In this document: piece after piece, positions 34,112 through 64,000 of the stretch
Layout of the letters: every line of letters begins with the position of its first letter
Position numbering within the stretch: the first letter of the stretch is position 1
Assembly: GCF_002078875.1 (NCBI RefSeq)
Contig: NC_034412.1
Span: 8,299,568-8,363,567, forward strand
Length of the DNA stretch: 64,000 nt
Reading direction: 5' to 3'
Source of the DNA: Numida meleagris
Taxonomy: Eukaryota; Chordata; Aves; Galliformes; Numididae
The notes under the pieces: generated by a model
Database searches by the model: none
What the model saw: only the letters and a program-made list of their open reading frames with translations
Told to the model about the DNA's origin: nothing
Translations under genes and position numbers: made by a program

Positions 34112-39614
<5,503 letters not shown>

Positions 39615-40129
39615 ACCCGGAGAACCACCACCAGGACCCACGGAGGGGGGGGGGGCATGCCCACGCCCCCCCCCACACCCCGGGGAGGGGGTACCGCACG
39701 CCGGGGGCCCCCGCTCCATCCCCGCCTTCGGGGCAGCCCCCTCGGGCCATGCACTTTACCCCCCCCTTCCCCTGGGCAGAGGGACCCCCCCCAAAAAAAT
39801 ATATACCTTTAAGGTGTGGGGGGGTCGGAGCGGACTCGGAGCGCTGCTGCTGCCCGGAGATATTCTTTGCTCCATCGTTTTTTGCATGAGCTTTGGTGGC
39901 CCGAGCGCCGTGTCCTGGTGTCGAGGGTCAGCCCCACTCCGGCACGCTTCTTTTTAACAGGAAAAATCCTCATATTTGTATTTTTATATCTATCGATCCG
40001 AATCTTTGTTAAAAACGATCGATCCGCCGACGTCGGTCCGCTGTTGGAGTCTGCAGTGTAAAGGGGTCATATTTTTTTCCATAAGAAAACAACAAAAAGA
40101 GAGAAAAAAATATATATATATAAAAGGGG

Positions 40130-40950
40130 GGGAGATGGAGAGAGAAAGGGAGAGAAAAGGAGAAAAAGGGAGAAAGGGGGGAAATGGAGAAAAGAGTCAA
40201 AAGGGGGGAAAGAAGAGTGAAAGGGGGAAAACAAAAAAGAGTGAAAAGGGGGAAATAAAAAGAGTGAAAAGGGGAAAATAAAGAGTGAAAGGGGGAAAAA
40301 AAGAGTGAAAAGGGGGAAATAAAAAGAGTGAAAGGGGGAAAACAAAAAAGAGTGAAAGGGGGGAAATAAAAAGAGTGAAAGGGGGAAAATAAAAAAGAGT
40401 GAAAGGGGGGAAATAAAAAGAGTGAAAGGGGGAAAATAAAAAGAGTGAAAGGGGGAAANAAATAAAAAGAGTGAAAGGGGGAAAATAAAAAGAGTGAAAG
40501 GGGGAAAATAAAAAGTGAAAAGGGTGAAATAAGAGTGAAAAGGGGGAAATAAAAAGAGTGAAAAGGGGGAAATAAAAAGAGTGAAAACGGGGAAATAAAG
40601 AGTGAAAGGGGGAAAATAAAAAGAGTGAAAAGGGGGAAATAAAGAGTGAAAGGGGGAAAATAAAAAGAGTGAAAAGGGGAAAATAAAAAGAGTGAAAAGG
40701 GGAAAAAAGAGTGAAAAGAGAGAAAGGGGGAAATGGAAAAAAGGGAGAATATGAAGAAAGGGGGAAAAAAAGAAAAGAGAAAGGGGAAAAAGCAGAAAAA
40801 GAGAAAAGGGGACAAAAAGGGGGGGAAGGAAAAATGAGACAAAGAAAAGACAGAAAATGGAAAAAAGAGAGAAGGGGGGGGAAAGAGAGAAAAGGGGGGG
40901 AGGGAAGGAAAAAAAGAGAGAGTGAAAGGGAAAAAAGAGAGAAAAACACA
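40130..40950 (+). repeat. polypurine minisatellite, unit about GAGTGAAAGGGGGAAAATAAAAA
   Basis: An almost pure A/G strand of about 0.8 kb. Between about 40210 and 40700 it is a tandem array of 18-25-base units of GAGTGAAA, G4-6, A3-4, then TAAAAA or CAAAAA. I count about 17 AATAAA hexamers in the sense direction. The flanks are less regular GA-rich sequence. One N (40459) shows an assembly problem. Confidence 0.93.
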
Positions 40951-41213
40951 GCCTGGGGGGGGGGAACTGCACCGCCATCATCCATCGCCCCGCGGCCGCC
41001 TCTGTCCGGAGGGATGCGGGATTCGGGGGGGGCTGTGGGGGGGGGTTATAGGGGAACAGGGGTCCGCTCCTGAGCTGTCGTTTTTAATTTTGTACTTTAA
41101 TTTAATTTTGTTTTGTAAGAAGCTTCTCGGGGAGGGTCGGGGCGGGGGGTGGGGGGTGCATGAGAAAAGCCGTCATTCTTTTTTCGGTCGCCTCCGAGCG
41201 GCGTTTACGGGGA

Positions 41214-41292
41214 CAAAAAAATGCAAAAAAAAAAAAAAAAAAAAATGAAAAAAAAAAAGGAAAAAAAAATCCAGGAAAAAAAAAAAAAGACA
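41214..41292 (+). repeat. A-rich tract
   Basis: Several poly(A) runs broken by single T, G or C bases, followed by a (CA)n stretch to about 41314. It lies in the CAMK2N2 3' UTR. No target-site duplication or retroelement body was recognised, so it is called simple sequence rather than an insertion. Confidence 0.75.
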
Positions 41293-41415
41293 ACCATACA
41301 CACACACACACAAAACAAGGAGGAAGAGGAGCGATCCGCGCGCCATCGTGTTCCACCAACGGCCCATTGTAACGTCCAGCGCCATTTGTCACTGTACGGT
41401 GAACAAAACGCGATG

Positions 41416-41421
41416 AATAAA
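41416..41421 (+). terminator. CAMK2N2: CAMK2N2 distal poly(A) signal
   Basis: AATAAA in unique sequence at the end of the long 3' UTR, followed by T-rich and GT-containing bases. Confidence 0.65.
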
Positions 41422-41948
41422 ATACATCCATGTTCCGCCGCCGCCTGCTCGTTCCTCAACTCCCCCGCCTCGGCACCCCCTGGCTCCGGGGGGGCCCTGC
41501 TGACCCATTTACATGATGGTAGAGCCCTGTGCCCGGGAACGGGGCTGCTGTCCCCCCCACCCTGTCCCCTGCACCTCCCCCCGGGCCTGGGACACCCTGC
41601 TCAGTCAGTGCGTCACCTGCCTGCCGTGTGTGTCACCTCCCCTGGCACAGGGGTGTCCCCAGACCGCAGGGGACAGCACATCAGGGTCACATCCCGCCCC
41701 CCCCCCTCAAGGCCTGGCACTGGGTCACAGCAGCGCTGGGGGCCGGGGGGGGCTGGAATTAAACCCGCTGCAGTCTGATTCTCGGCCGCGCAGCCCAGCG
41801 CCCTGGCTGCAATCCGATAGGATGGGGGGGGGCACAAAGCAATGGGCAGCGCACGGCCCCGCTGCCCCCCCCCCAGCCCTGAACAGCTGGGATGGGGAGC
41901 TGGATTCCCCCACCCCAAAACGAAAGGCACAGAGGTGACACTGCGGGG

Positions 41949-45281
<3,333 letters not shown>

Positions 45282-45459
45282 GGCGACGGCGGCGAACACG
45301 TGCAGCTTCCGGTGTGCATCTGCTAAGAGCTTCCGGCTGGGAGCGTTGTGCTGCATGCAGATTTCCGGTCCCACCGCTGGGGACTTCCGGTCCTCCTGCT
45401 GAGGGCTTCCGGATGGAAACGCGTCCTCACCCGTAAAGAGTTCCGTCTGGGGAGGAGGC
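45282..45459. promoter_or_regulatory. bidirectional EEF1AKMT4/ALG3 promoter with an ETS-site array
   Basis: Only 178 bases separate the two start codons. Five same-orientation (C/T)TTCCGG sites (45306-45312, 45330-45336, 45362-45368, 45384-45390, 45406-45412) plus a TTCCGT at 45441 recur every 22-32 bases, consistent with GABPA/ELK1-type sites. No TATA box is seen. Confidence 0.8.
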
Positions 45460-47602
45460 ATGGCGGTGGGGTTGCGCCGGGTCTGTCGGGAGGTGCTGCT
45501 GGAGCCCCGCTACACGCCGCTGGTGGCCGCCTGCCTGTGCCTGGCGGAGGGCGGCGTCAACCTGTGGGTGATCCGCAGGGTCCCCTGTGAGTAACGGGCG
45601 GTGCGGGGCGGGGTGCGGGGAGCCCCGAGCCGCCCTCCTCAGCCGCCCGCCCACCCCGCAGACACCGAGATCGACTGGCAGGCGTACATGCAGGAGGTGG
45701 AGGGCTTCGCCAACGGCACCCGCGACTACACGCAGCTGCGGGGCGGCACCGGGCCGCTGGTGTGAGTATAGGGCCTATGGGGAGGGCGGTGTGGGGCGGG
45801 ATGGGGGGCAACGCGGCCCGCCCGGTCTGTGCCCGCAGCTACCCCGCCGGCTTTGTGTACCTCTTCCTGGGGCTGTACTATGCCACGGGCCGCGGGGCCG
45901 ACATCCGCCTGGCGCAGCACATCTTCGCCGGGCTCTACCTGCTCAACCTGCTGCTCGTCTTCCGCATCTACTGCCGCACCTGCAAGGTAGGGGGTACCAC
46001 CCCGAGCGGCCCTGTGTGCCACCCACCGGGCCCCGCCACTGAGCCCCTGTCCTGCTAGGTCCCCCCGTATGTGTTCTTCTTCATGTGCTGCGCCTCCTAC
46101 CGCATCCACTCCATCTTCGTCTTGCGGCTCTTCAACGACCCCGTGGCCATGGCCATCCTCTTTCTCGCTGTCAACTTCTTCCTGGAGGACTGCTGGTCCT
46201 GGGGCTGCCTGCTGTTCAGGTGTGGGGTCAGCGGGGCTGGCCTCAGCATGAGGCTCTCCCCTCGTAGGCTGTGCTGTAACCCCACTTCCCACCTAGCCTG
46301 GCTGTGTCAGTGAAGATGAACATCCTCCTCTTCGCACCCGGGTTGCTCTTTCTCCTCCTACAGCGTTTCGGCCTTTTGGGCTGCATCCCCAAGCTCTGCA
46401 TCTGTGCTGTACTCCAGGTTGGTCCCTGCCCCTCGCCATTGCCTGCTGTCACCAGAGTGTCCTGTAGACCCCTGGGTGGGTGTGCTGCAGCTCCAGCACC
46501 TGTGTTGGCCCCATACAACTAACAGCAGACCCCCAGGGCTCCCAGCTTTGGCTGTCCTGCATACACACCTCAGCACACAGTGGGGGTGACAGAGCCCCAG
46601 CTGTTGGCTGCTGTATCTTGCAGGTGGCCCTAGGGCTGCCCTTCCTGCTGGAGAATCCCGTGGGGTACCTGACACGCTCCTTCGACCTGGGCCGTCAGTT
46701 CCAGTTCAAGTGGACAGTGAATTGGCGCTTCCTCCCAGAGGAGGTGTTCCACCACCGGGCTTTCCATGCTGGGCTGCTCCTGGCCCACCTGGCTGGCTTG
46801 GTGCTCTTTGCAATGCACCGATGGCACAGGTGAGACCTGAGTGTCCCCATGGGTACTAAACCCTTGTCAACCATACCCTCCCAGTCCCCATAGTTGTGGC
46901 TCATGGTGGGAAACTGGGGTGGGAAAGACTTTGAGCAGCTGAGACTGATGTTTGTGCTTCCCAGCAGGTCCAAAGAAAGCATCCTATCTCTGCTGAAGGA
47001 TCCAGCTGAGAGGAAGCACCCATCCCCTCCCTTGAGTGTCAACAATATCCTTTGGCAGAGTGCGGGGCGAGGAGAGGGGGAAGGGCAGGGCAAGCACTGG
47101 AAGGCTGCTCGTGGGGAGCCATGGAGGGGGGGTTGCACATCTAGCTTCTTGGGTTTGTCACCTCAATGGTCGCTCACAGATCATCTTCATCCTCTTCTCC
47201 TCCAACTTTCTGGGCGTCTGCTGCAGCCGCTCCCTGCACTACCAGTTCTACGTCTGGTACTTCCACACGCTGCCCTACCTGCTGTGGTGCACCCCGACCT
47301 CCAAGCTTGCCCACATGCCCAAGTATGTGCTGGCAGGGCTCGGTGTCCTGTGGCTGCTGGGGTTTTGAGGGGGCTGTTGTGCCCCCCTACTGACCCCTGG
47401 CTCCCCCCACAGGGTGCTGCTGCTGGGCGTGATCGAGCTCTGCTGGAACACCTACCCCTCCACTGTCTGCAGCTCCCTGTCCCTGCACATCTGTCACGGA
47501 CTGGTCTTGCTCCAGCTGTGGTACGGCACAGCCCTGCCACCAGCCCCACAGCCCCCCCAGCCCAGCAAGAAGTCTGCTCCCCTCTCCAGGAAGGCACAGT
47601 GA
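45460..47602 (+). CDS. ALG3: dolichyl-P-Man:Man5GlcNAc2-PP-dolichol alpha-1,3-mannosyltransferase
   Basis: ER-membrane GT58 enzyme that adds the first mannose from Dol-P-Man on the luminal side during N-glycan precursor assembly. Nine exons: 45460-45586, 45662-45761, 45839-45986, 46059-46219, 46297-46417, 46624-46829, 46968-47044, 47178-47322, 47413-47602. They total 1275 bases, 424 aa (human 438). Conserved landmarks are [50 protein letters not shown] and [19 protein letters not shown]. Multiple hydrophobic spans are present. The intron between exons 7 and 8 is AT-AC, and only those boundaries keep the frame. The ATG was chosen as the first in-frame start after the shared promoter; MAVGLRR begins the N-terminal cytosolic tail. 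Confidence 0.97.
47045..47177 (+). other. ALG3: U12-type AT-AC intron of ALG3
   Basis: The 5' splice site ATATCCTTT matches the U12 consensus at all nine positions. The 133-base intron ends CTCAC, with a branch-like CACCTCAAT about 11 bases before the end. No GT-AG pair restores the frame. The joined codons give N-K-I-I-F, where human has N-Q-I-V. Confidence 0.88.
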
Positions 47603-47768
47603 GAGCACGGCTGGCTGGACGATGGGAAGGGACTCCGGGTCAGCTCCTTCTGCTTGCTCTTCTGCCCACCTTGCTTCCAGGTTGCCCCTGGCCACCCAAG
47701 GAGGGCCACGAGCCCTGGAACTGTGTGAAGGAGGCAGTGTGGGAGCCTGTGCTGGGCAGGACTTCTCC

Positions 47769-47774
47769 AATAAA
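47769..47774 (+). terminator. ALG3: ALG3 poly(A) signal
   Basis: AATAAA 166 bases after the ALG3 stop codon. VWA5B2 ends on the opposite strand less than 300 bases away. Confidence 0.85.
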
Positions 47775-48064
47775 GGGGCTCTGGGGGCCCTTCCCTGGCT
47801 GCAGTGTCCTCGTGCTGTGGCAATGCCTGGACTGCACTTCCTTCTCAGCCTTTGGAGAGTGGTGCCTGGGGCCAGCGTGTGGAACAAGGTTAAGTCAGAG
47901 CATCTGCAGAACTCTCTGCTGCAAGGCATGAGTGGCTTTGATACCCCTCCTGCAGCCTGGCCGTTCCCTAACCTCCTGTCTGCTCCCTCCCCCAGGGGAA
48001 GGGCTGATGCTTTCCAGGGCTCTGGGCTGAACGGAGACTCACAGGCAGCACAGAGCCAGGCGCC

Positions 48065-48070
48065 TTTATT
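48065..48070 (-). terminator. VWA5B2: VWA5B2 poly(A) signal
   Basis: Minus-strand AATAAA only 17 bases after the VWA5B2 stop codon, predicting an exceptionally short 3' UTR. Confidence 0.75.
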
Positions 48071-48087
48071 GATGGCCCCTGAGGCCA

Positions 48088-51000
48088 TCACATGTTGTTG
48101 GGGTTGTAGCACAGCATGTTCAGCGTGATGTTCTCGTCCCAGTGCCGCAGGAGCAGGAACAAGTGCCGGGCTGCCCCTTTGAGGCAGCTCACGTCCAGGC
48201 CCTCGGGCAGCTGCTGCGCTTGCAGCCATGCGTCCGCCTTGGCTGCCACCAGCTCCCATTCGTCAAAGAAGCCGGCGCAGCGGTGCTCCAGCCATGCCAG
48301 GGCCACTGCCGTGGCCCAGCTGGCACTCTCCAAGTCCTCCAGCCCCATGTCCTGCCAGCCTGCTTCTGATGGGGCGGCTGAGTGGGGAGCGGTGTCAGAC
48401 TCGGATCCGTGCCCGCTGTCTGCCTGCGCCCACACGGCTGCACTGGGCACCTCGGAGCAAGTGCTGTGGGACTGGGGTGAGCCAGGCTCTGGAGCTGCAA
48501 CTGGCTCCTCGCCCTCTGTGCACTGCCCTGCCCCGGGGCTGCTCTTGGCCACAGGGGACGTAGGGCTGAGGCTGGCACGGTGGGAGGCATAGGGTGAGGC
48601 ACGGCGCAGGCGGTCCAGGGGGATCTGCACCACTTCAGAGAAGCTCTCAGTGAGCTGGAATGGCCCCCGTGCTTGCTGTAGCTGCACCTGCAAGGGGGTT
48701 AGGAGACTTAGGGGAGCAAGCAGGGACCCAGACCGACTGCAGTCCCAATACTCAGTATTGCAAGAAGGGCCCTGGGCTGCAGGGGCTGCCCCATGCTGTG
48801 GATGCAGCAGTGCTCCTCAGAGCCACGGGAGTTGCATTCTCTGTAGCTGCAGCTGGTGATACCGAGCATGGCCTGCACGGGTCCTTACCAGCGGGAGGTA
48901 GTCGTGGCTGGCGGCTGTGCTGGAGCACTCACTCTCAGGGCTGAGGCACTGTGGTCGCAGTGTCAGGCTGGGCCCCCTGCGCCGGCTCAGGCTGAACCTG
49001 CAAATGGTGAATGAACAGGGCGGGGTGTCACCTGTCCCTTAATGACGGGCAGCGGGACTCCCGCACACTGCTGCAAGGAAGGGGCTGGACCACTATTCTC
49101 CCAACCCACCCACACCTGCAGCACTCAAGAGGTGACGCTGCCCAACTCCTCCCATTGAGGTGCTGCGTCCCCCCACCCCAGAACCCATGCAGGGCAGCCC
49201 CACCTGGAGCCAGCAATGCTCTCTCTGGATTTCTGGGAGGCCATAGAGGAGCTGGAAGGGCTGGTTGGAGGCCCTGCAATGGGAGAATTGGGCAGTGCAG
49301 AAGGGCCATGGTGCACAGGGATGGGTTCATCCCCAGGGCTGTGTCCGTACCGTGAGAGCCGTTCTGCTTTTCCCAGCCAGAGGTGGCAGAGGAGGCACTG
49401 ACTGGAGACCCAGGGACCTCATCCCTCTCTGCAAAACAGCGAAGTACTGCAGTCACCAAGGCCTGGGGACCTGCATAGCCCAGTCCTTGTGGCTGCTCAG
49501 CATGGAGCTGAGATCAATTCCTCCTGCAGCCCATAAGCACTGACTTGGGCTGGGCACCCGCAGTTCAGGGGACGCCTCGCTATGCCCAGGGTCACTGAGG
49601 TCCCTGAGGGCTTGGGGTGGGGTGTAAGGGGTTGGGTCCATACCTGCACCAATGAGAGCCTCTTGCTCCTCCTCATCCTGCTGCCGGCGACGCCGGCTCC
49701 CCGCCATGCCTGTGCTGCGTGCAGCTGCAAGGCACCAATGCCGGCTCAGCGCGTGCCGTGCTCGATTCCCCATCCCCGTGCTGTCCCCACAGCCCTACCT
49801 GTGCTCCACACCTGCGGGGCTGCGGGCAGCACCACCCGCGTGGCCCCATCCACAGGCACCACACACGTGTAGAGGGAAGGCACGTTGCAGGCTTTGCTGG
49901 TTTGCATGGCTTTCAGGCGGAAGCGGCGAGCAAAACCTGCACAGAGCGGGGTGTCAGCAAGCGGTGATGGTGACGGTGACAAGGACAGGGACCAGCACCC
50001 ACCCTGCTCCAGCTCGGCTTCGCGCTGTGCCGCTTTCTCGCTGTCCTGGATGACGGAGCGTGCTGCCAAGCCATGCAATGGTTTCTCCCCTGCTGTGGCC
50101 GCCTGCCGTGGGGGATCCTCACTGCCTGCCCCCTCCTGCGGCTGCAGCAGGGCCTCCAGCGAGGCCGTCACCTCCCAGGACACAGGCTGGCCGGCACGCA
50201 GCCCGTGGATCACCACGTGGCAGCGCAGGGGCAGGCAGGGATCGCCTTGGCCGGGCTCCTTTGCCTCGGGCACCGCTGCGCTGAAGAGGTAAGAGGGCTC
50301 CACCAGCATGTCCCAGTCCAGGTGGGTCGGCGACAGGAGGTTATCTGCGTGGCCCAGGACATGGGATCAGCATGGTGACCCCATGTGACACCAGGGTGAC
50401 CTTTATTCCCAGGGCTGGCACTCACTTGATTCTCCAATGCTGCGCTGCAGCCGTGGTGTCCTGGGGGCCAGCTGGTCCAGCCGCCCCTCCACAGACTGGT
50501 TCCTCTTCTGGGACACCTTCTCCAGGGCACGGCAGAGCCGGCGTGCATCCAGCTCCCCGTGTGGCGAGGAGAAGCTACGGCCAGCCAGGGCGGCTCGTGC
50601 CAGCGCCTTCTGCCGCCGTGCCAGCTCCTCACTGCTCAGCGATACTGGCACCTGCGGGAGCTCACGGCGAGCCCGGGGCTCAGTGGCACAGAGTGCAGAT
50701 GGGGCTGTGCTGATGCTCAACAGGCACCCACAGCCCTACCTGGTGTCCTGACCTGCTGCTCTGTGAGCTGCCACCCCAAATCCATCACCTCCCTGCACAG
50801 CAGGCCGTGCTCATAAGGTGCTTAATGCACGTGGGAAAGGAATGACAGCACCGAGATGTGAGTTTGCAAACATCTGTCTAGGGCTGACGTGGAGATAGGA
50901 GGGATGCCCCATCCCTGGAGATGCCCCAGGTCAGGGGGATGGGGCTCCAGGCTCCTGATGGAGCTGTAGGCGTCCCTGTTCAGTGCAGGGAGTTGGACCA

Positions 51001-54000
51001 GATGGTCTATAAGCACTTCTTCCAACTCAAACGGTTCTATGATTCTATGTGGTTTTGGTGATGTTTGCACATGTGGGGACTGAGCTCAGCTGCTCCACGC
51101 AGGAAGGTGCTCAAAACCCCACACTGGGGTATGGCTGCAGCACCCACACCCAGCAGCAGGAGCGCAGGGATGGTTTACATTGTGGGGAAATCACTTATGC
51201 TTGACATTTCAGCTGCAAAGGCCACCAGCTGTGTGTGCTATTGTGCAGCAGGTTACCTAACACGCCGGGAGGGAGCAACAGGCGGTGCTGGGCTGGCTGA
51301 CAGCTGGCCTCACCTGGCCTTGGGGACATGGCACTGTGCTTAGCAGGGAGCAGCCTCCCCCGGCACAGCGACCAGGCTGGATCCAAACCCAGACATCAAG
51401 CAGCAGGGACGAGCCCATCACTAAAGGAGCATCCTGCGGCTTTGGCAGAGGGCTGCGGCAGCCAGGCAGGAGCCAGACTACCCCCTCCCTGCCTTGGCAG
51501 GTTCACTGCCTGATGGCCACATGGTTGTTTCCATTTCATTTCTGCAGCATCAGTGAGGACGTGAGCTGGCCGAGGCTTTCCTTAGCAACACCGTTGCCCA
51601 CTGGCCTGGGGGTACTGGCACCTGGGGCGGGACTGGCTCCTTGGTGCTCAGCTCTCTGGTTCCAGCGGGACAAACACACCTGAGGAGCCTGCTGGCAGCA
51701 CCCAGAGCTTACCCTGGCTAAATGCAGGCTATGTCCCTCCAGTTTCTGCCCCAGCATCCCCATATCCAGGCACATTGGGTCAGCAAGGCAAGGCCCCAGC
51801 CAGGTGGGGAACAGCCCTGGCACGTGCCTTACCTTGATGGCAGCAGGGGCCGAGGGCAGCGGGGCAGATTTGGTGGAAGACTCACAGAGGGACAGGCTCT
51901 TCTGGCCCTGCTGGGAGGTGGTGTCGGGGGCTGCGGAGCCGCTGTCGGGGGCCACGTCGCGGGAGCCGGTGGACTCGCTGCTGGTGGAGCTGCGCGACAG
52001 CAGCCCCTGGCTGCGCTCCGTGCTGACCGAGCAGTGTGTCAGGACGTACTGCTCCTGGATGTAGGAGGGCTGGTAAATACGCTTCCAGATGTCTCCCCCC
52101 GAAGTGAGGTCAGCACCTGCAGGGCGAGCACACAGCCGTCAGCTCACAGTCCCCGCGCCACCTCTCAGCCCCTCTCCATGCCCATCCCACTCACTGCGCT
52201 CCGACTCCTCTGTGCCAATGGCCGAGATTTCCACGGAGGTCTCTCTGGAGCTTCGGGACAGCCGTGTGCCCCCCGGGGTGGGCACCTCCTCCTGTGAGGG
52301 GATGACCGAGCCCCGGCAAGCTCCATCCCGGCCCTGGCGGAGAGAGTGTCAGCTCCAGTGGCAGCACCGGAGGGGGCCACAAAGGTGGTCAGGAGGATCC
52401 ACAAAAAGGCAGTATCTCCCTAGCCTCACCACCGGGTGCTGATCCCGGAAACGAGCGATGCTGTACAGGGTGCAGTAGCTGACCAGCCGGTCCCCGGGGT
52501 AGAGCGCTGCGATCTCGGTGGGTGAGAGCAGGGCCTCAGTGCTGTCGGGCACGTACCAGTCGATGGTGATGTCGCTGACGGCCGGTTCCATGGCCTTCTT
52601 CAGGGCCTTGATGAGCTGGGGCAGGGACAGAAGCTGGTGTCTGGCCCCACCATAACCCACGTGCCCCCCCACCCCATTACCTTGGGCTGCAGCCTCTCGG
52701 CCAGGCCCAGGAACTCGGCGCGGCCGCGGCTCAGCTTGGCTATGGCTGTCAGCAGCCGCCGGCAGGCCCGTGGGCCCATCCCAAAGCTAAAGCACCTGCG
52801 GGAGGGACCCATGCACTAAAACACCTCCAATTTCAGCGACAACCCTCCAGATTCTATGCCCGACGCCATACCTGACGGTGCTGGCCTGCCTGCGCACCAG
52901 CTGCAGGATGCGGCCCACGTCACCCACTGCCGCTGCCGCGGTGAAGAGGAAGAGCTGCCGGGGGTACCCGTGGTGCAGAGGCTGCGCCAGTGCCCAGCTC
53001 AGTGCTGCCAGGAGGTTGGGGCTGCCCATGGCCACCCGCAGCTCACCCAGGTGGCGGCAGGCTCGCTGCAGAGTCTCCTGCCCGCCAGGACAACCGGCTC
53101 GTGGGGATGGCACCGGGCAGCCATCTGCAGTAGGGTCGGGTGGGGAGGATGGAGGGGGATGGAGGGGGACAGGGGGTCCCCCACAGCACTCACGTTGCTG
53201 CAGAGGCGGCTGGAGGGGAAGAGCGGCTGCAGGTCAGCGCCGAAGGTTGCCATGTTGAGAAGGGTTCCTGGGGGGAGGCTCTTCAGGGCCACCAACAGCG
53301 CTTCCTGGGCATGGGGACAGCCATCAGGACTCACAGCTCGGTGCGGGGTCCCCAGGCTCACCGCCCCGCCTCACCTTGATCCTGTCGATATCGGGGCCGC
53401 TCACGGTTCCACTGCGATCCACGAGGAAGAGGACCTCACGGGTGACGCTCTGCAGGTCCCCTGGGGCAGCCTCCGCCTCCGGGCAGAAGTTGAGCATCAG
53501 CACGGGGTTGTGGAAGATGTCCTTGTGGAAACGCTTCTGCACAAAAGCCACCTGCAAGGGGTGGGGGGCCTTTCTCACATCTCTTGGCCCCACGGTGCAA
53601 ACCCACACCGGGGCCTTCCTCACCACCGCCACCGCCATCACCACCGCTGCCCTCTTCTTCCTCCCAGCCATGGCCGTGCCCGGTCACCTGTCTCTCCCCG
53701 CTGCCGTCCCTCCTGGCTATCCGCATGTAGTCCCTGCGGCTCCGGATGTGCGCCTCGTACTCGGGGTACGTCAGGGTGCCTTCCTCCATCACCAGGTGGG
53801 GCTGGTGGGGCTCTGTGGGCGCTCACATTTGCCCCACGCTTTGAGGCCATGCCCATCCACCCCTGGACCCACCGCACCCGCAGCCCTTACCGCAGGGGTA
53901 GAGGATGATCTCCACGTCCCTGTCGTAGCGGTGACGCTCGGCCAGTGTGACGCAGGTGGTGGTGGCAGAGCTGGCCCAGGGGTCAGCATCGGCACGCAGT

Positions 54001-55403
54001 GCGTGGGTCGGGCTCTCCAGGCCTGGAGGGGGCACAGACCCGCTTGGACCCGGGCCCAAGTAAGCCACCAGCCAGCGCTGATGGGATTCATGCTGATGGC
54101 AGCCAGCTGCCTGACGTGCCCCTGCAGCCTCCATCCATCACACCCCCGCCGAGGACGCAGGATGCTGACTCAGAGCCCAGTGGTGCTGCTCAAAGGGTGG
54201 TAATGCCACATGCAGAGCAATTTTTGGGGCCTCCAACCCCCAGCCCTACCTGCCAGCAGGCAGGGGCCCTTCACCAGCAGCTCAAAACCAAACTCGTAAG
54301 GAAAGGGGTTGCAGGGCTGTCCCCTGAAGACATCTGTGCTCTCCGCAGGTGCTGTGGGTGCGGGCTGGCTCCGTGCACCAGGTCCCCCGAAACAGCTGGT
54401 GGGGCTGCAAGGGGCATGGGGTGAGGGCAGCTCCCACACTTCCCCTGCACACCCAGCATCCCCCCCCCACCCCAGCCCTAGGACGGCAGAGACTCAGAAA
54501 GCCGTGAAAATCACCATAGGGCCAACCTGTCGTCACACAAGCTTCCCGGCTCGCTCTCACACTCGGGGGTGGCAGCGACGCGTGGCACAAGGACGGGGGG
54601 CAGGACGAGGCGCAGGGCCCCCCCCGGCAGCGTGGGCAGCTCCCGCGCTGTGCTTAGGGTCACGGCCAGGCTCTCCGCCGGCCCCAATGCGCCTGTGATG
54701 ATGACGAAGGTGGAACGCTCGGTGTCCTCATCCAGGACGAGGTGACCTGGGTGAGGGGAGGGACCACGCAGGCATCGGTAATTGAACTAATTGCTCACCA
54801 AGGGGACGACAGAGGGGAGCGCAAAGGGACGGGAAAAATGGACAGAGAGGAAGAGGATGGAGCTGAAACGGCAGAAAGCTGGGGACTCATTAGGGAAAGC
54901 AGAAATAAGAGGAGCATCCCTCCAGCTCTCCTGGAGCAGCAGTGGGATCTCATCAGCCCCTCGTACCCCTGTGCTTTGCCCCACGCACTCACCCCGGGCG
55001 CAGCGGCGCGGCCGCCCTGGGCTAGTGCCGCACTCCAGGCAGCACTCCTGTGCCCGGTGCCGGCTCTGCACCTGGAAGGTGACCCGCCGGCTGCCCGCTG
55101 CCGCCTCAAAGCTGGCCACTATCTCCGACTCCTCCAGCGGGTAAATGAAGACACCTGCAGGTGGGAGAGAGCCCAGAGGCAGAGCCCAGATTGGCAGTGA
55201 GGTTGGAATGGGGAACTCCAGCACGGTGTCTATAGGGTCCCTGCACCCCAACAATCATCCTTACCTTCCACGGGCTCCTCGCGTGGGTTCGTGTACAGGA
55301 GCTGGGCGGTGATGCTCAGCACGTACCCATTGGCACATGCCTTCACCCTGGAGCTCTTCAGGGGCAGAGCCTCCCAGGAGGAGAGCACGTACAGACCTGG
55401 CAT
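48088..55403 (-). CDS. VWA5B2: von Willebrand factor A domain-containing protein 5B2
   Basis: Function is poorly known; by family, an intracellular VIT plus VWA protein. Twenty-one coding exons: 55403-55265, 55154-54993, 54746-54527, 54404-54250, 54022-53891, 53812-53688, 53551-53375, 53304-53194, 53077-52872, 52795-52681, 52615-52430, 52333-52195, 52116-51833, 50651-50426, 50344-50003, 49936-49799, 49724-49644, 49428-49351, 49273-49204, 48997-48889, 48687-48088. They total 3795 bases, 1264 aa (human about 1242). The start MPGLYVLSSW matches human MPGLYCPSSW. A VIT domain occupies the N-terminal 140 residues. The VWA domain begins EVLFLVDRSGT (D at residue 356), where the metal-site motif reads DxSxT instead of DxSxS. 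A Ser/Pro-rich disordered region follows, then a conserved C-terminal domain with TAVALAWLEHRCA and LLLRHWDEN. The acceptor of exon 9 is at 53077, not 53124, because only this keeps the frame. Confidence 0.96.
50905..51049 (+). mobile_element. CR1 LINE 3' fragment
   Basis: A 5'-truncated copy containing CATCCCTGGAGATG, GGAGTTGGACCAGATGG and the tail TTCCAACTCAAACGGTTCT followed by ATGATTCTATG, the hallmark of avian CR1 3' ends. It lies in the 1.2 kb VWA5B2 intron between exons 14 and 13, antisense to the gene. It has no coding capacity. Confidence 0.92.
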
Positions 55404-55881
55404 GGTCCCTTGGTCCCTCGGAGCAGCTGCAAGATGAGGCGCTGGGAGGGGGTCTGCAGGGAAGGGGCTCACGAACACTCCCAGAGGGACACGCACATGG
55501 ACCTGAACCCAAATCTCTGCTTCTGGAGCCAAACCTCAGCCCTGCAGAGCCACAGGAGCCCACATGGCCAGCAGCAGACAGCCACACATCCCTGTCTCCT
55601 GGCCACCCAAAGCAGCTCAGCAGCCCCAGGGCCTCTGCAGCCCATCCCCTCTGCTGGTGGGGAGAGAAGCATCTGCTGCTCCCATCTCCATCCACCCACA
55701 GAGGTTACCAGGGTAATTTGCTTGGGGAAAAAAAAAAAAAGATGCACAAGAAGCCCACGGCGTAACTAGGGCACAACAGAGTGCGGTGTTTGCTGGGGAT
55801 TTAATAATTAACAACAAGGTCAGTGCTGCACTGATGAGTGGCACAGAGGGGAGGGGGCAGCGCAGGGATTCACACGTGTGG

Positions 55882-56046
55882 CTAATCCTAACCCTATAAC
55901 TGACCCTAACCCTACCCTAACCCTAAGACTAATCCTAACTCTAACTTTAAACCTGACCATATCCAAACACTAAACCTATCCCTAACCCCAACGCAAACCC
56001 TTACCGTAACCCTAACCCTAACAACAACCCCATTTTAACCCCAACA
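55882..56046 (+). repeat. degenerate interstitial telomeric repeat (CCCTAA)n
   Basis: About 160 bases built from CCCTAA and near variants (CCTAACCCTAA at 55901-55925, CCGTAACCCTAACCCTAACA near 56004-56023) with substitutions and small indels. The C-rich strand is plus. It lies in the 5' UTR intron of VWA5B2. Confidence 0.93.
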
Positions 56047-57004
56047 TGGGAAGAGGGGTGCACGCACTGTGGGACAGCAGCGGGAGCAGCACCCAGACAG
56101 GGACAGCCCCAGCCCCGCTGCCTGGAGCCATCAGGGATGGGGTCACCCCAAAGCCCTCTCATTAGTTCCCAAGGCGCCCGGCTCAGCGCTCAGCAACGCG
56201 CCCGCTATTTGCCGTGCCACGCTGCCTTGTTTACCGGGGCTGCCAGCAGAAGCTGTTCCAGCTGCTTTTTATCACTTCTCTTTGCATTTACACTCGCAGG
56301 GTAAACAGGGCCCATCTGGCCCCGTGTGCTGCTCTAAGCCCCGAGGTGATGAATAAAAGCAGAGCTGCTCCTCGCCCCAACCTCAGCCCCTGCAGCAGCA
56401 AATGGTCCCCAGTGCAGAATCACCAGCAGGACCCCATCCTCTCCCCACCTCCAGCATTTTGTGGCCTCCTCCTCATCCTCCCTGCCGTGAACAGCTGTAA
56501 AGTTGCCAGAGCTGCATCTGGGAGAGCTCAGCCTGGGCATGGGCAATCGCAGCCCCACAGAGGTGATGCCCCATCACAGCCCCAAAACCAGCACAGCACG
56601 GGGTCCCCACTGGAGCTGGCTCAGGGCTCCCTCCTGTCTCCCCCCAGCTCTGCCCCACACTCCCTCCCACTAAACCCCTGAAAAACCACAGCCCCATGCC
56701 AGGAAACTTCCCCTCAATGCGGCCCAACACAGGCACCCCCAAAAATAAGCGCATCCCATCCCCATGGATCCCCCAGCACGGGCACAACCCTAGCAAGCAG
56801 CCCTGACAAAGGGTCCCACTGATGGCCAGGGGGCATTAATGGCACAGCCCAAGGACCCGCCACTGACGCCCCGGGGCAGTTCCCAGCGGCGCGGATCCCA
56901 GTGGGGCGGTGATCTCAGCACTTCCATGCCCCCCACTGCCTCACCTCACAGCAATCATGCAAACCTGGGGCACCCCAAACCCCCCATCGTGCCCTGGGCC
57001 TTAC

Positions 57005-57555
57005 CTGGAGGATGATGACACAGGGCTTGGGGGCTCGGCACCCCCAGGAGATGCACCAGGCTTCTGCCCGGAGCGATTCTCTCTCCTCTTGGTTGGGGTC
57101 TGTGCGCACGAACGCCACCGCCCCTCCCGCTGCAGGCTGCTGCTCTGGCACCGGCTCCTCACCGCCGCTCCATCCCTGTGCCAGCAGCAGCACAAGCTCC
57201 AAGCCCTGCCTCGTTAAAGGGACACGGCCCCCGCTACGGCAGCCCCAGGGTGGGGGTCACGTTGCGGCGCGGCCGAGCACCCGCCCCAAACCCACCCACC
57301 GCGGGCACCCACTGCAGCCCAGCGCACGGGGACAGCCCCGAAGAAGGGCAGGAAAACGCAGGGGAGGTTTGGGGGGGGCTCAGCCTTCGGGCGAAGCGCG
57401 TGGTTGGGGAGGGGGCCGGCGGCCGGGGCACGGCGGCACAGCCGGGACAGCTCTGCCGGGAGGGAGATCCCGGCCAGCCCAGCCTGGGAATCCCTCGTCC
57501 CGAGCAGGGCCGGGCAAAAACCCAGCAAATGTAATCCAGGCAGCTCCCTCCCTGC
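57005..57555 (-). other. VWA5B2: probable VWA5B2 5' non-coding exon
   Basis: A consensus donor (CCTCCAG/GTAAGG) ends at 57005 on the minus strand, 1.6 kb upstream of the first coding exon, whose acceptor at 55426 precedes the start codon by 23 bases. The upstream limit is inferred from the TATA box. It contains upstream ATGs. Confidence 0.5.
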
Positions 57556-57584
57556 GCTATAGATAGGACCGCGCTGCCGCTGCA

Positions 57585-57593
57585 CTTTTTATA
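57585..57593 (-). promoter_or_regulatory. VWA5B2: TATA box for VWA5B2
   Basis: TATAAAAAG on the minus strand in an otherwise CpG-rich region, predicting initiation near 57555. A (CCAT)n microsatellite lies just upstream in the gene sense (57621-57642). Confidence 0.55.
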
Positions 57594-57599
57594 GAGCGT

Positions 57600-58193
57600 G
57601 CACGGGGGAGGCACCGCCACCATCCATCCATCCATCCATCCAGACAGCCAGCCATCCTGCCGCGCTCCGCCAAACCCGCACCGAACGCGGAGCGGAGCCG
57701 AGCGGCGCAAGGCAGGGCGAGCGGCCCGCACAGACTGCGGGGCGGGACCCAGATCCCAGCCCGGAGCCAGGGGCTGCCTGCACGCCCCGGAGAATACGCG
57801 GCGGGCGCGGGGCTGCGGGTGCCGCAGCGCCTCCCGATCGGGCAGCGCCATCCGCTCGCCGTTCTGCGCAGTCACCGCTTCCCCCCAGCAGCTGTGCCGC
57901 AAGGCTGCGAGCGGAGCCGCCCGAACGCAGCGCGCGGCTCCAGGCGCAGAGCAGCGCGGCGCGGCACCGCGGGGCACGGCCGGCAGCGGAGCGCGGCGGT
58001 GCGGTGGCGCCCCCTAGCGGTCAGCCCGGCGGGACGGGGGCGGGGGGGGCCGGGGGCGGGCGCGGCCAGGAAGTGCCGGCCCCATCCGCCGCGCGGGGCG
58101 AGACGAGCCCGGGCTTGTGGCGGCGCGGGGCGGGAGACGCGGAAGCGAGCTCGTGGGGATCGCGCTTCTTGTTCTCCTCGCGCGGCCAGGGCC
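57600..58193 (+). promoter_or_regulatory. CpG-rich promoter and leader of the YqaJ-domain gene, divergent from VWA5B2
   Basis: Extremely CpG-rich DNA with no TATA box in the plus orientation. The frame open from 57819 continues into the gene but has no convincing ATG context before 58194, so this stretch is treated as promoter and 5' UTR. Confidence 0.5.
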
Positions 58194-59330
58194 ATGGGGA
58201 GGCCCAGGAAGGAGCCGGCCGGGCCCTCGTCCCCTCGGCCCGCGGCTTCCAAAGTGCCGCCCGCCGCGCCGCCGCCGTCCGCCACGGGCAGCCGGGCTGC
58301 GGAATGCCGGCCCCGGAGCGCTCCGACCGCGGGGCGGGGCCGTGGGGCGAAGGGCGGCGGGGACGCGCAGCCGCGACCCGCGGCACAGCCCCGACCCGCG
58401 GCGTCGTCCCGCGGCGCCCAGCAGCACGCGGCCGCCTCCGGGAGCCAGAAGAAGGCGGCGGGCACCAAAGCAGCGCCCAGCCCAGCCAAGGCCAACGCCG
58501 GCCCGCACCTGCCTGAAGGCAGCAAAGGAGCTCCATCCCGGGACCACGCCAACAACGCCAAGGCCAACCCGCCCGGGGCCTCGCCACGCTTCCCGCCCAC
58601 CCTGCAGAGCCAAGACATCCCCCGGGTGGAGGAGCAGACGCGCGGCCAGCGCACCAACCCGCAGTGGTACGCGTGGCGGCAGAACCGCATCACGGCCTCG
58701 CTGGCCCCGCGCATCGCCAACAGCAAGTTCGCCAACGGCAAGACGGACAAGGTGCCCCAGTCTTACCTGAAGGCGGTGCTGAGCGCCGGACCCTCCGTGC
58801 AAACGCCGGCCATGTCGTGGGGTATCCGCAACGAGAAGGAGGCGGTGCGGGCCTACGAGCGGCTCAAGTCGCAGGAGATGGGCCAGCCGGTGCAGGTGGA
58901 CGACTGTGGGCTCTTCATCCATAAGGAGAAGACGTGGATCGCCGCCAGCCCCGACGGCATCGTCACTGAGGCCGGCACGGGGAAGCGGTTGGGGCTGCTG
59001 GAGGTGAAGTGTCCCTACAAGCACCGCAACAAGACGGTGCAGGAGGCCTGCAAGGACAAGGACTTCTGCCTGCAGCGGGACGGGGACTCCTACACACTGA
59101 AGCGCGATCACCACTACTTCACCCAGGTGCAGTACCAGCTAGCGGCCACCGGCTTGCAGCACGCCGACTTCGTGGTGCACACCAACAAGGAGACGGCCAT
59201 GGCCCCTGTGGAGTTCGATGCCGAGTTCTGGGGGAAGACGGTGCCCAAGCTGGAGAAGTTCTACACCGAGGCGGTCCTTCCCCACCTGGAGCAGCAGGCC
59301 AGCGGCTCGGCCTGGGCCAAGGAGGAGTAG
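58194..59330 (+). CDS. YqaJ-like (lambda exonuclease fold) nuclease domain protein, intronless
   Basis: A single-exon gene of 378 aa, starting at ATG 58194 in GGGCCATGG context. Residues 1-148 are a basic, Ala/Pro/Lys-rich disordered region beginning with an AT-hook-like GRPRK. Residues 150-370 match the YqaJ/lambda-exonuclease family, which has the PD-(D/E)XK fold: RQNRITAS (162-169), WGIRNEKEA (G210, E214 and A217 of the GxxxExxA motif), AASPDG with D254, LLEVKCP with E270 and K272, and QVQYQ (311-315). All expected catalytic acidic and lysine positions are present, so activity is plausible. Phage members are 5'-3' recombination exonucleases; the role here is unknown. Codon use and GC match the neighbours, so it is long resident, not recent contamination. 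It has its own poly(A) signal. Confidence 0.88.
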   Translation: MGRPRKEPAGPSSPRPAASKVPPAAPPPSATGSRAAECRPRSAPTAGRGRGAKGGGDAQPRPAAQPRPAASSRGAQQHAAASGSQKKAAGTKAAPSPAKANAGPHLPEGSKGAPSRDHANNAKANPPGASPRFPPTLQSQDIPRVEEQTRGQRTNPQWYAWRQNRITASLAPRIANSKFANGKTDKVPQSYLKAVLSAGPSVQTPAMSWGIRNEKEAVRAYERLKSQEMGQPVQVDDCGLFIHKEKTWIAASPDGIVTEAGTGKRLGLLEVKCPYKHRNKTVQEACKDKDFCLQRDGDSYTLKRDHHYFTQVQYQLAATGLQHADFVVHTNKETAMAPVEFDAEFWGKTVPKLEKFYTEAVLPHLEQQASGSAWAKEE

Positions 59331-59994
59331 AACCCGCTCGTGGCTCTCCTGGATGATCGCTTGGCTTTGGGTTGGCCACGCAAACCCTGCTAGCAAACCC
59401 CTAGCGTAGAAGCTACACCTGAATTTTCTGCTGTTCCTGTTCTGTTCGCTGCTTCTGCCCCAGTGGTACCGCAACAGGATGGAAGAAGTCACACCAGCAG
59501 GGCCCTGCGAGGAATGATGTTGTTCCGCCTGGTGATGGAGAAATGTCCTAGAGCCAGCCCAGCACTCAGCCCCATTGCTACCCCGTGCTCCTTGCTGCCT
59601 TCCGGTTCGAGCCCTTGGCGCTGTCTGATGAAAGCCAGCAGCACATCACATCCATCAGCACTGGAACTCTGTGGGGAAAACTGGATCCTTCAGCACCTAA
59701 ACACTTGGCAGGACTAAACCTTAATTCCACCCCGGAGTGGAAACCGATCAGGACAGATTTGTCTGAGCCCGAGAGCAAAACACAACCTTTGATTTAAATC
59801 ACGATGTGCCTTAGCAGCCTCAGCAGGGTGCAGGGGCAGCCCTCCTCCTGAGCCAACCCACATCACTCAGGAACGGGACCAGGGCAGGGCGGATGGTGCC
59901 TGCCCAGGAGGTGAGGCTGCAGGTTCCTGCAACACTCCGTGCAGCGCAGCAGGGAGGTAGGCATCATCACTTTGCTGTGTGACTCACTCTGTCA

Positions 59995-60000
59995 AATAAA
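59995..60000 (+). terminator. poly(A) signal of the YqaJ-domain gene
   Basis: AATAAA 664 bases after the stop codon, followed by a TTGTGTGTGTGG downstream GU-rich element. This shows the gene has a normal polymerase II 3' end. Confidence 0.85.
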
Positions 60001-60179
60001 ACATTTGTAGAACTGTTCCTTGGCTGTTGTGTGTGTGGCTTGGGGGGGTACCTGGATGGGGGGAGCTGGGCTGGGGGGGAGGGGGGGTTGCACCCAGAGA
60101 TGTTCAGCAGCTCGGCTGGCTCCCGCCTGGAAGGAAAGGGAGAAACAGGCCAAAGCCATCACCATTATGGCAAAAGTAC

Positions 60180-60185
60180 TTTATT
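60180..60185 (-). terminator. poly(A) signal of the PHF13-like gene
   Basis: Minus-strand AATAAA about 1.65 kb after the stop codon and only 180 bases from the convergent YqaJ-gene signal. Confidence 0.7.
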
Positions 60186-61831
60186 ATATACATACGACTC
60201 CAGCCACACTCCACAGGGCAAGGACCAGAATTTGCTATTTTACATATCAATACAAAGTAACTATAAAAAACATAAAGCACTTTTGGGGCCCAGGCTTTCC
60301 ACAGGAGGAGAGGCACAGGGATGAGCCTGGGGATCGCTGGGTGGTGGGGGGCTGCCCCCCACTGTCCCCCAGCTGTGGTCCCATAGTAACCAGATGTGCA
60401 AGTAGGAGAGAACCCAGCTAAGAGAACTAAATATGGGACGGGCGGGTTGGGGCTGTCCCACGTCCCGCTCCAGCAGCAGCGTGCCAGGGCCGGGCCAGGT
60501 GGCACTGGGACAGCAATGGAGTCTGTGTCCCCCGCCCAGAAAGTGCAGAAGGCACTGGGCCAGGCTCTTTGGAGGGGCTGCGAAGTGGGATTTGGACAGT
60601 CAGTGCACATGGGGCCCCAGAGCACACACACCGCTCACAACCAAGGGCGATGGGGAAAAGCCTTCCACTTGGGACTGAAAGGTAAGTCCTGTACCTCCGG
60701 AGCAGCAGTTGCATAGCAGAAGGGGCTTAGGGCCCGTTCCTGACATCAAACTTCACTCTACATGTCCAGAAAAAAGAAGAAGGAAAAAAAAAAAAAGACC
60801 AACGAAACAACAAAACAATTTCTCTGCAGGAGGGCTCGCTGAGAAGCAAAGCCCTCCCAGCACCCAGCTCTGTCCTGAGCTCAGGTCTCAGCATCTCGCA
60901 GATGCTCCACCTGCAGGCAGGAGATGGCCGCAGGGTTCAAGGTTCAATTGTTTGAAACTAGAAACACGGAAAACCAAACAGAATGCTTCCCCCTCCCTGT
61001 CCCATGCCCTACTTGCTCTGAGGGTAGCTGGGTTCCCTACCACCAACCTCACATCTTCTTCAGACAAGAGACTTTAGTGCAACCAGAGAGTCTGAACCAA
61101 GAGGACTCAAAGAACAACTTTTCTAACAATCTACTACAGAATGCCCTTCCTGCACACTGTCCTTCAGCCAACGGAACTACCCTGAGGTCTCAGGCACAGC
61201 AGCTGAAACCAGGAGCACCACAGGACAGGGGCAGGATCTCCCCTGTGCAGCCTAAGGGGCTGATGAGCCAAAAATGGACACCTGATGCCCAACACAGAGC
61301 AGCCTGGTCTGCTCCAGGGGTGGGCAGGGCCAATATTCATTCCTTCCTCTCATCCTACATGGAGGAAGCTTGCCTGGGCTGTGTCTACATCCTGGAGGAG
61401 AACTTGGGTCACTTGGGCTTTGCCGTCGCAGCCCACCTGAAGGTCTCAGGCAAGGACAACAGTGAGGATAAAGGAGGATGGGAGTCACATCTTGAGATAA
61501 GTGTAAGCTTCCACCACACCGCACGGGAACTATTTGGACTAGGTTCTCCTCGGCTGGCCTGGGGGAAGGCACTGAGCCAGGTCTGTGCAAGGACAGAGAT
61601 GTTTCTGAGCAACCTAGCACACGGCTCTTCTCCCCCAGCACCTCTGGGGTAACCAAACTTTGTGGTCAACGCAACACCCAGGGAGGACGCGTGACATCCT
61701 CCAGGAGGCAAGGAGCAAGGGGGACAGCCCAGCCCTGCAGCCCAGCCCTTCCCCTGCCGTTACTGCATTGATTGTCTAGCCAGACTGGGCTACAGCCTGA
61801 GGTGTAAAGAGGGCCCCCCCAGCCTCCCTGC
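60186..61831 (-). other. long 3' UTR of the PHF13-like gene
   Basis: Non-coding sequence between the PHD-finger gene stop codon and its AATAAA, with A-rich runs near 60770-60795. No splice-flanked reading frame or RNA gene was seen. Confidence 0.6.
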
Positions 61832-63813
61832 TCAGTCACAGAAGCGCTTGCGGGGCACTGTCCGTGCTCTGTTGGAGCGGCGAATCTCCTGCTTGGCGTC
61901 ACGACATCGCTGGCAGATGAAGATCTCAGGCACGTTGGATTTGCGGATCTTGGCACAAGAGAGATGGATCCAGGTAGCGCACTCGTTACATTCAATCATG
62001 GGCCTCCCTGCGAAGGGCTTCAGGCAGAAGCAGGTGATCAGATCCCAGGCATCGTCATCTGGTCAAGGGGAGACAGACACCGGTCAGAAACCACCCCACA
62101 GCTGTGGCCTGACCCTGCCATGGGGCACAGCACCACCTCTGAAGACACAGCCAGTCCCACTGGGAGAGCCCCCCCACTCACCTTCTGCTTTGGTGTTGGG
62201 AGCTGCTGCAAATTCATCCGCTGCAAAAGGGGAAAAAAAAAAAAAAGAGAAAAAAGTAAAGACCACATCAGCAAGGCACCTTTACAGCCTCCTCCCTAAC
62301 AGGTTTCCAGCCTGCACTGTGCTCCCTACAGAAGAAAGTCTCTAAAGAGCGGGTCAGCTCCTGGGCCTCCGCTCTGCACTTCTCCCAGGCCCCTACGGTG
62401 CTCCCCAGAGCCCCCCATGAGGAGAAGCCAGGACCATCTGCAAGCACAGGTGGCCCTGGCAAAGGGAAGGTGTTTGGCACCAACCACAGCATGGCTCCGT
62501 TCCTTCAGGCACTCACCACTGAGCTGAGAGCTCCCTCTGCTTGCATCTTCCGCTTCGCTTTGGTCCAAGGTACTACAAGAACTGGGGCTTTTCCTTCCCC
62601 CAGAGCACTGCTCCTGCTCCTTTAGCTGCGGATCGTCTCCTGTTGGCTTTCCTGCTCCCTGTGCTCCATGCACCCAGTCCTTCTCCTCCTTCGTCAGCTC
62701 CTCCAGGAGGGCATGGGGCTGTGGGTCCCCAGCCACGCTGAGGGGAGGCTCTGAGAGCTCTTCTTTCCCAGGCGGCACCCGCCCCTCCAGCGCAGCCAGC
62801 TCTGTCCCTCGCTCCTGCTCTAGCCCAGAGCTTTTCCCAGCGCTCAGCTTCTCCACCTCCTGCTCCAAGATGAGTTTTTTCACCGGTGGCTTCTTCCGCT
62901 TGATCTGCTGGGGCCGAACATCATAGAAGCCAGCGGGGAAGGCAGGGCAGCCCAGGAGCAGGCTGCTGTCCGCAGCCCCTCTGGCCACGCTGCGACTACT
63001 CCTGTCATCTGCCAGGAGGTGGATATCAGAGGAGTGGGAGGAGGCCCAGCTATCGCTGTCCTGTGTGCTCCCCGTGCTGTTCTGGGGGCTCATGCTGCCG
63101 CCGTGGCTCCAGGGCTCGTTCTGCAAGAGGGGAAAACGCGGCAAAGGCGTGAGACCGCAGCAGGGATGTTGGGGAGATGGCAGGAACAGCACAAGACCGC
63201 AGCACCAACACCGCGAGTACCAAGAGGGGACGTGCCCAGAGGAGCCCTGTTGGGGGTGAGGGACAGGGCGGGGGGGCTTACCTCATCGGGGTAGGGGATG
63301 TATCCGGCGTAGGCCAACACGAAGGTGCAGAACTGGTTGAAATCCTCCACGGTTCTCTGTCGCTTCTGTAACGGCTGCAACGAAGGGGACCTATGGGTTA
63401 GACCCTACCCACGCACCGAGTTCCAGCACCGGCAGACGGACGGGGGTCCCGAGCGCCCGCCCCACCCCTCACCCCACCGTGTAACACACACAGCTCGGTC
63501 TCTTCACCCCCCCCCCCCCACCGCGGGGCACGCCCCGCAACGCAGGAACCGTGAGTCAGTGCCGGGGGAGCCCCGGGATCCCGGGGGCGGGCAGGGGCCC
63601 AGGGGACAAAGTCTGGGGGACGGCGCTCCGTGAGAAGACCCCCCCAAGGCACGGGGCGGCACCGCTGTACCGGGAGCGGCGCGGGGGAACGGGAGCGGGG
63701 ACGGCACCCACCGCCCCCCCCTCCCGCACCGCCCCGGCCCGGCCGGTCCCCGCCGACACCTGATCGCTCCCAAGATGGCGCCCGCGCTCCCGGGCTGCCC
63801 CCGGCCCCCCCAT
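61832..63813 (-). CDS. PHF13/PHF23-family PHD finger protein
   Basis: Five exons (63813-63760, 63374-63282, 63120-62517, 62220-62182, 62058-61832) total 1017 bases, 338 aa (human PHF13 300). The family signature [20 protein letters not shown] is in exon 2. Exon 3 is a longer, divergent linker with a basic [10 protein letters not shown]. The C-terminal PHD finger [19 protein letters not shown] through CQRCRD holds the Cys4-His-Cys3 ligands and the aromatic-cage Trp residues expected of an H3K4me2/3 reader. The tail [16 protein letters not shown] follows PHF13 (RRSNRSRTGSRKLFLD) rather than PHF23. Exon 1 (ATG at 63813, [11 protein letters not shown]) is the weakest part: it was chosen because it has a donor in phase 0 and supplies the only plausible ATG. 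It may be PHF13 itself or a third paralogue. Confidence 0.87.
63771..63782 (+). promoter_or_regulatory. YY1 motif at the PHF13-like gene 5' end
   Basis: CAAGATGGCGCC matches the strong YY1 site found close to many CpG-island transcription starts. It overlaps the proposed first coding exon, which is a reason to keep that exon tentative. Confidence 0.6.
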
Positions 63814-64000
63814 CCCTCCTCCCCCCCGCGGGGCTCCGCTCCCCCCGCACCGGGAAGCGCACACACAGCTCCGAGACGCGGACACGCGGGAGGGGGAGGG
63901 GGGACTCTTCCCACCCCCGGGGGTACCACGGCCAACAGCCCCATCCCAACGCGGCACCGCCGCACAACCGAACCCACTCCCCCAGCACAGAGCCCTCCCA
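63814..64000. other. CpG-rich upstream flank
   Basis: GC-rich sequence upstream of the PHF13-like gene, continuing to the window edge. No coding feature is supported. Confidence 0.4.

Follow-up and report, generated by a model that had tools for sequence, protein, structure and literature searches.

Enzymes of the lambda-exonuclease type have been described in phages, large DNA viruses and transposons. Lambda exonuclease, whose 5'-phosphate pocket contains Trp24 and Arg28 (PMC7496540), and LHK-Exo represent the phage and bacterial YqaJ-type alkaline exonucleases. ISL2EU transposons (PHIS superfamily), reported in animals, carry an open reading frame (ORF) for a DDE transposase and mostly another for a YqaJ exonuclease; PHIS elements are reported to be lacking in mammals, birds, sharks and coelacanths (PMC4482050), and ISL2EU to be present in teleosts, not found in the gar, coelacanth and elephant shark examined, and absent from tetrapods (PMC9179366; ISL2EU structure in both). 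The 64,000-nucleotide stretch analysed here (the window; Numida meleagris contig NC_034412.1, positions 8,299,568 to 8,363,567) carries on its plus strand an intronless coding sequence for a 378-residue protein of this kind at 58194..59330, supported by translation, Pfam and the assembly match. Judged by sequence, this ORF represents a genuine and ancient vertebrate gene for a lambda-exonuclease-like protein, and it is fairly probable that its product is a cellular nuclease of jawed vertebrates that was captured from a mobile element and processes DNA ends in the nucleus.

The frame reads through 378 residues and a stop codon without interruption, as the initial annotation of the window had it. 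It lies in a stop-to-stop frame of 587 codons (57567-59327), and the opposite strand, too, has an open frame here, of 374 codons (58017-59138). This GC-rich DNA has many long open frames; open length, being weak evidence there, was dropped as proof of a gene and the reality of the ORF was decided by homology. Over codons 130-378 the GC content is 0.936 at third positions against 0.43 at second positions, which marks a coding pattern. The profile Pfam YqaJ (PF09588) matches residues 157-321 (E-value 2.1e-19, 70.7 bits against a cut-off of 22), and Viral_alk_exo matches over profile positions 98-230 of 461 (E-value 2.6e-7); the YqaJ/lambda-exonuclease-like gene claimed at the outset, for which a Pfam YqaJ search had been suggested, is borne out by both. 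A PHROG family named RecE-like recombination exonuclease also matches (7.7e-19), and the top match of a fold search against viral models (BFVD) is a baculovirus ALK-EXO with 23% identity; the alkaline exonucleases of baculoviruses and herpesviruses share the fold of the bird protein. Lambda exonuclease and LHK-Exo are about 20-26% identical to it, from which it differs in being cellular, in a basic N-terminal region some 130 residues long and in an insert before the QxQxQ helix.

Membership of the YqaJ-like/lambda-exonuclease family is indicated by the curated profile cut-off, the fold, the catalytic set and the 5'-phosphate pocket, the last two being visible in the nuclease domain (codons 149-360; 58638..59273), which has a mean identity of 75% to 116 full-length relatives (117 full-length proteins with the bird protein counted). 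Profile alignment places W158 and R162 (W158...R162...S169; 58665..58700) on the lambda pocket residues Trp24 and Arg28, M207 and E214 (M207...G210...E214; 58812..58835) on the wedge residue Leu78 and on Glu85, and the metal-binding and catalytic core S252-P-D254 with E270-V-K272-C273 (58947..59012) on Asp119, Glu129 and Lys131. The PD-(D/E)xK set (E214, D254, E270, K272) is thus present, and every catalytic residue quoted in the initial annotation was found (G210, E214, D254, E270-x-K272, Q311-V-Q313-Y-Q315). In an alignment of 171 sequences (the bird query P0001 to P0166 and five proteins from a later search, with unnamed rows among them), every sequence that covers the position has E214, D254 and E270, K272 is replaced once (by N in P0121), and W158 and R162 are each conserved in 163 of 164 sequences, with the same protein (P0076) as the exception. 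The mean conservation rank of these six positions is 18 of 212, whereas randomly drawn residues of matching types average 127; none of 20000 draws (from pools of 4 to 18) ranked as low. A godwit gene model outside the alignment (P0167) is without the stretch bearing the catalytic lysine, which looks like mis-splicing. Four cysteines of the domain (C238, C273, C286 and C292) are nearly invariant; their spacing differs from what we take to be the spacing of Cas4-type cluster cysteines, a comparison made with an iron-sulphur or metal cluster in mind.

Both ends of the protein are conserved as well. MGRPRK (codons 1-6; 58194..58211), presumably an AT-hook-like half motif, starts 92 of the 117 full-length proteins, whereas codons 7-129 (58212..58580) form a fast-changing basic linker with a mean identity of 30% to the 116 relatives, predicted to be disordered (predicted local distance difference test scores of 44-56 by block); in a single-chain structure model residues 1-130 are mostly unordered. 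The basic N-terminus that had been claimed is evident in the 21 K/R against 5 D/E among residues 1-129. At the other end, WAKEE (the last five codons; 59313..59327) is found in 80 of the 117 and its final EE in all of them. The conserved start and end show that both termini belong to the gene.

The Numida meleagris assembly (1,043,257,979 bases in 2461 contigs) contains one match to the protein, in one block covering residues 1-378. To look beyond this genome, we made three protein searches, each giving its best 120 matches, many of them unnamed: residues 130-378 recovered 639 of 2093 candidates at E<=0.001, a 200-residue piece recovered 159 proteins at the same threshold, and a profile of non-vertebrate relatives recovered 6170 proteins among 7981 candidates scored. 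Among the matches listed, the first search gave birds from ostrich and kiwi to songbirds, alligator, turtles, geckos, anoles and snakes, along with salamanders, caecilians and frogs; the second gave teleosts and a catshark, and the third lungfish, saw shark and smooth-hound. The orthologue survey suggested at the outset accordingly found relatives in birds, reptiles, amphibians, fishes and sharks, with no mammal named among these best 120 matches of each search. This fits the earlier claim that no human gene sits at the corresponding place, short of proving it; a diverged or unlisted mammalian copy is possible. In the databases the orthologues go by 'uncharacterized protein' or 'YqaJ viral recombinase domain-containing protein', and some by odd names (protein capicua homolog, EZH inhibitory protein, NOLC1, flocculation protein FLO11-like) that are probably mistakes arising from the low-complexity N-terminus.

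Phylogenetic analysis places these relatives in one family. In a tree of 76 rows, all 33 vertebrate rows and the unnamed P0164, which falls among the teleosts, form a clade of 34 with strong support (100/99), in which the catshark branches first, followed by the split of teleosts and tetrapods; 17 viral rows form a clade of their own (100/100). A second tree combined 20 vertebrate rows with 77 others, taken from the 113 of 136 candidates in which the domain motif extended across 170 residues or more and thinned at 62% identity. Omitted beforehand were P0314 (frog) and two unnamed proteins guessed to be vertebrate, rightly for P0288 (76% identical to lungfish) and wrongly for P0310 (nearest to non-vertebrate rows). 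The unnamed P0174 has 152 residues, not enough for tree building; it shows 48% identity across 63% of the query and is nearest to other non-vertebrate proteins. The 20 vertebrates again form one clade (100/100; present in every one of 200 bootstrap trees); the quick tree drawn leaves its base unresolved among sharks, teleosts and lungfish plus tetrapods, with frogs again ahead of the other amphibians. YqaJ proteins of the fishes Neoarius (P0293) and Sinocyclocheilus (P0318) share the domain and fall outside this clade; P0293 has a C-terminal PHD-like match just below cut-off (25.2 against 27 bits) and, by eye, SWIM-like cysteines. Identity to the bird protein over residues 149-360 declines steadily: it is 85% in goose, 80% in kiwi, 76% in alligator, 72% in turtle and gecko, 68% in salamander, 67% in frog, 62% in lungfish, 56-57% in two teleosts and 56-58% in two sharks. 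With a single clade broadly in species-tree order, frogs excepted, the sequences point to one orthologous family from sharks to birds that is not bird-specific, and the simplest reading is that a single gene has been passed down vertically since the ancestor of jawed vertebrates; the distribution from sharks to birds upholds the cellular, old gene proposed initially.

When IMG/VR was searched with the protein alone, none of 9 matched stretches was confirmed as a relative, and a profile search gave 331 relatives, of which 80 were kept, those at most 32% identical to the bird protein; the 17 of these 80 that entered the 76-row tree are the viral rows with a clade of their own. The kept viral relatives are thus more distant than other eukaryotic YqaJ proteins: among 113 of these, domain identity reaches 40% to the bird protein (a tick protein) and 41% to that of the saw shark. 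Direct descent from known viruses was dropped, given the distance of the kept relatives and the separate viral clade; the viral searches do leave room for an old viral donor. One of the closest non-vertebrate proteins (P0313, 41% to shark) has YqaJ fused to a Mutator-like transposase domain, which suggests that another transposon group may use a YqaJ nuclease. Ten YqaJ proteins were scanned for other domains, with SAP found in P0284 and OTU in P0242, and PHD-like and SAP matches just under cut-offs in P0293 and P0277; such partners suggest mobile elements. A transposon appears the likelier donor, since eukaryotic DNA transposons carrying a YqaJ ORF have been reported (PMC4482050, PMC9179366), and, as the gene exists in both birds and sharks, any capture must be either older than the teleost ISL2EU elements or unconnected with them. 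The bird gene shares the YqaJ domain with these and differs from them in its one copy and in having no terminal inverted repeats framing it among the 25 longest of 47 pairs at 55500-61500; no transposase profile was found in the stretches scanned beside it (minus strand of 48001-58000, both strands of 38001-48000 and 59331-64000). Capture from a virus or mobile element, as put forward in the initial annotation, is something we still infer.

Building on the fold match, residue conservation, orthology and copy number in the assembly, we propose the following for donor, activity, polarity, location and job. The gene was most likely captured from a eukaryotic YqaJ-bearing mobile element before the split of sharks and bony vertebrates. 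A DNA end most likely docks with its 5'-phosphate in the W158/R162 pocket, after which nucleotides would be cleaved 5' to 3' with two magnesium ions held by D254 and E270 and activation by K272, leaving a 3' single strand, while the basic, disordered N-terminus (MGRPRK...) probably anchors the enzyme on nuclear DNA. Its job would most likely be the processing of nuclear DNA ends, that is, recombinational repair or the clearance of unwanted linear DNA.

Several observations weigh against this proposal. The NCBIfam model TIGR03033 (phage_rel_nuc, a lambda-exonuclease subfamily) scores below its cut-off (58.2 against 68.05 bits), and the residues of the lambda exonuclease channel (around Arg45) show no clear conservation, K178 and K183 ranking 144 and 122 of 212. 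The 56-58% domain identity of the fishes and sharks compared is quick change for a core repair enzyme, and in the 76-row tree frogs split before the salamander-caecilian group joins the amniotes, contrary to the species tree (99/99). Among the matches listed, the turtles Carettochelys, Malaclemys, Emydura and Pelusios have two entries each, and for each of the newts Pleurodeles and Lissotriton there are at least two. In the 76-row tree a snake protein (P0144), maybe a diverged extra copy, has a long branch; the gene is therefore not single-copy everywhere.

The same evidence bears on other explanations. A defence role, in which the 5'-to-3' exonuclease destroys linear viral or mobile-element DNA, a transposon or viral tool turned on its like, is possible if rather doubtful, the one match in the assembly showing no expansion in the bird's own genome. 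An action in mitochondria or another organelle, like that of MGME1, seems improbable to us. Many captured transposase-type proteins retain DNA binding only, and the present protein could likewise have been kept for its structure, without nuclease activity; its catalytic residues, however, are conserved as strongly as almost any position in the domain, which makes this more improbable still. Although viruses and ISL2EU transposons are the typical carriers of the domain family, a recent or still mobile insertion is scarcely conceivable and was rejected on copy number (one match in 1.04 Gb) and orthology (orthologues reaching from sharks to birds and largely following the species tree), the conserved protein ends and the absence of framing repeats in the set examined arguing the same way.

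The surroundings of the gene were examined, over the strands and stretches listed above, by reading the frames of the window with stops as residues and scanning them with Pfam. Head-to-head with it, and transcribed away on the minus strand, lies a VWA5B-like gene (52871..55400; VIT_2 at 55060-55400, VWA_3 at 52871-53316), beyond which are ALG3 (best stretches at 46.1-47.3 kb, plus strand), a methyltransferase (43.7-43.9 kb, minus strand) and a CaM-kinase-II inhibitor (38.0-39.6 kb, plus strand). This order fits what we take to be that of human 3q27 (CAMK2N2, EEF1AKMT4, ALG3, VWA5B2), so that the VWA5B2 neighbour named initially is credible. Ten other long frames at 7.7-47.9 kb had no Pfam match, few long frames having been scanned upstream of 38 kb. 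On the other side, a convergent gene contributes a PHD-finger exon (61904..62002, minus strand) that is PHF13/PHF23-like by eye; a search with its frame against solved chains gave nothing at E 0.001. As the human order presumably has no such gene beside VWA5B2, the YqaJ gene and this neighbour may have been lost together in mammals. A CpG island (57501..59000) covers the 5' end of the ORF on the side facing the VWA5B-like gene, with observed/expected ratios of 0.999 (57501-58000), 1.011 (58001-58500) and 0.884 (58501-59000), and an AATAAA polyadenylation signal follows at 59995..60000 on the plus strand, both as had been noted initially; a scan for promoters and terminators designed for bacteria found nothing. 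Between the head-to-head genes, GGTGGCGCCCCCTAGCGGTCAGC (58003-58025) resembles, by eye, what we assume to be the CTCF motif, and a TATA-like box can be read by eye on the minus strand near 57586-57593.

No description of the gene was found in the literature searched (titles and starts of abstracts, mostly of papers outside subscription), in agreement with the initial statement that no function had been described; a paper on roach mentions 'YQAJ' only as a dropped quantitative polymerase chain reaction target. It is conceivable, although unlikely, that non-mammalian jawed vertebrates keep a host-owned version of the phage Red or herpesvirus alkaline-exonuclease step, a 5'-phosphate-driven resection feeding single-strand annealing, that mammals have lost. 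Gene targeting is highly efficient in the chicken DT40 line, which such a host resection enzyme, if real, could help explain, with mammals the odd group out. A cellular enzyme of this class, retained all the way from sharks to birds, would give vertebrates a DNA nuclease not yet studied and, if mammals lack it, one that work on human and mouse cannot reveal. With a biochemistry that is, going by its sequence, predictable from the family, and amenable to knockout in bird cells, frogs and fishes, the gene offers a clean test of the domestication of a viral- or transposon-type recombination nuclease by vertebrates.
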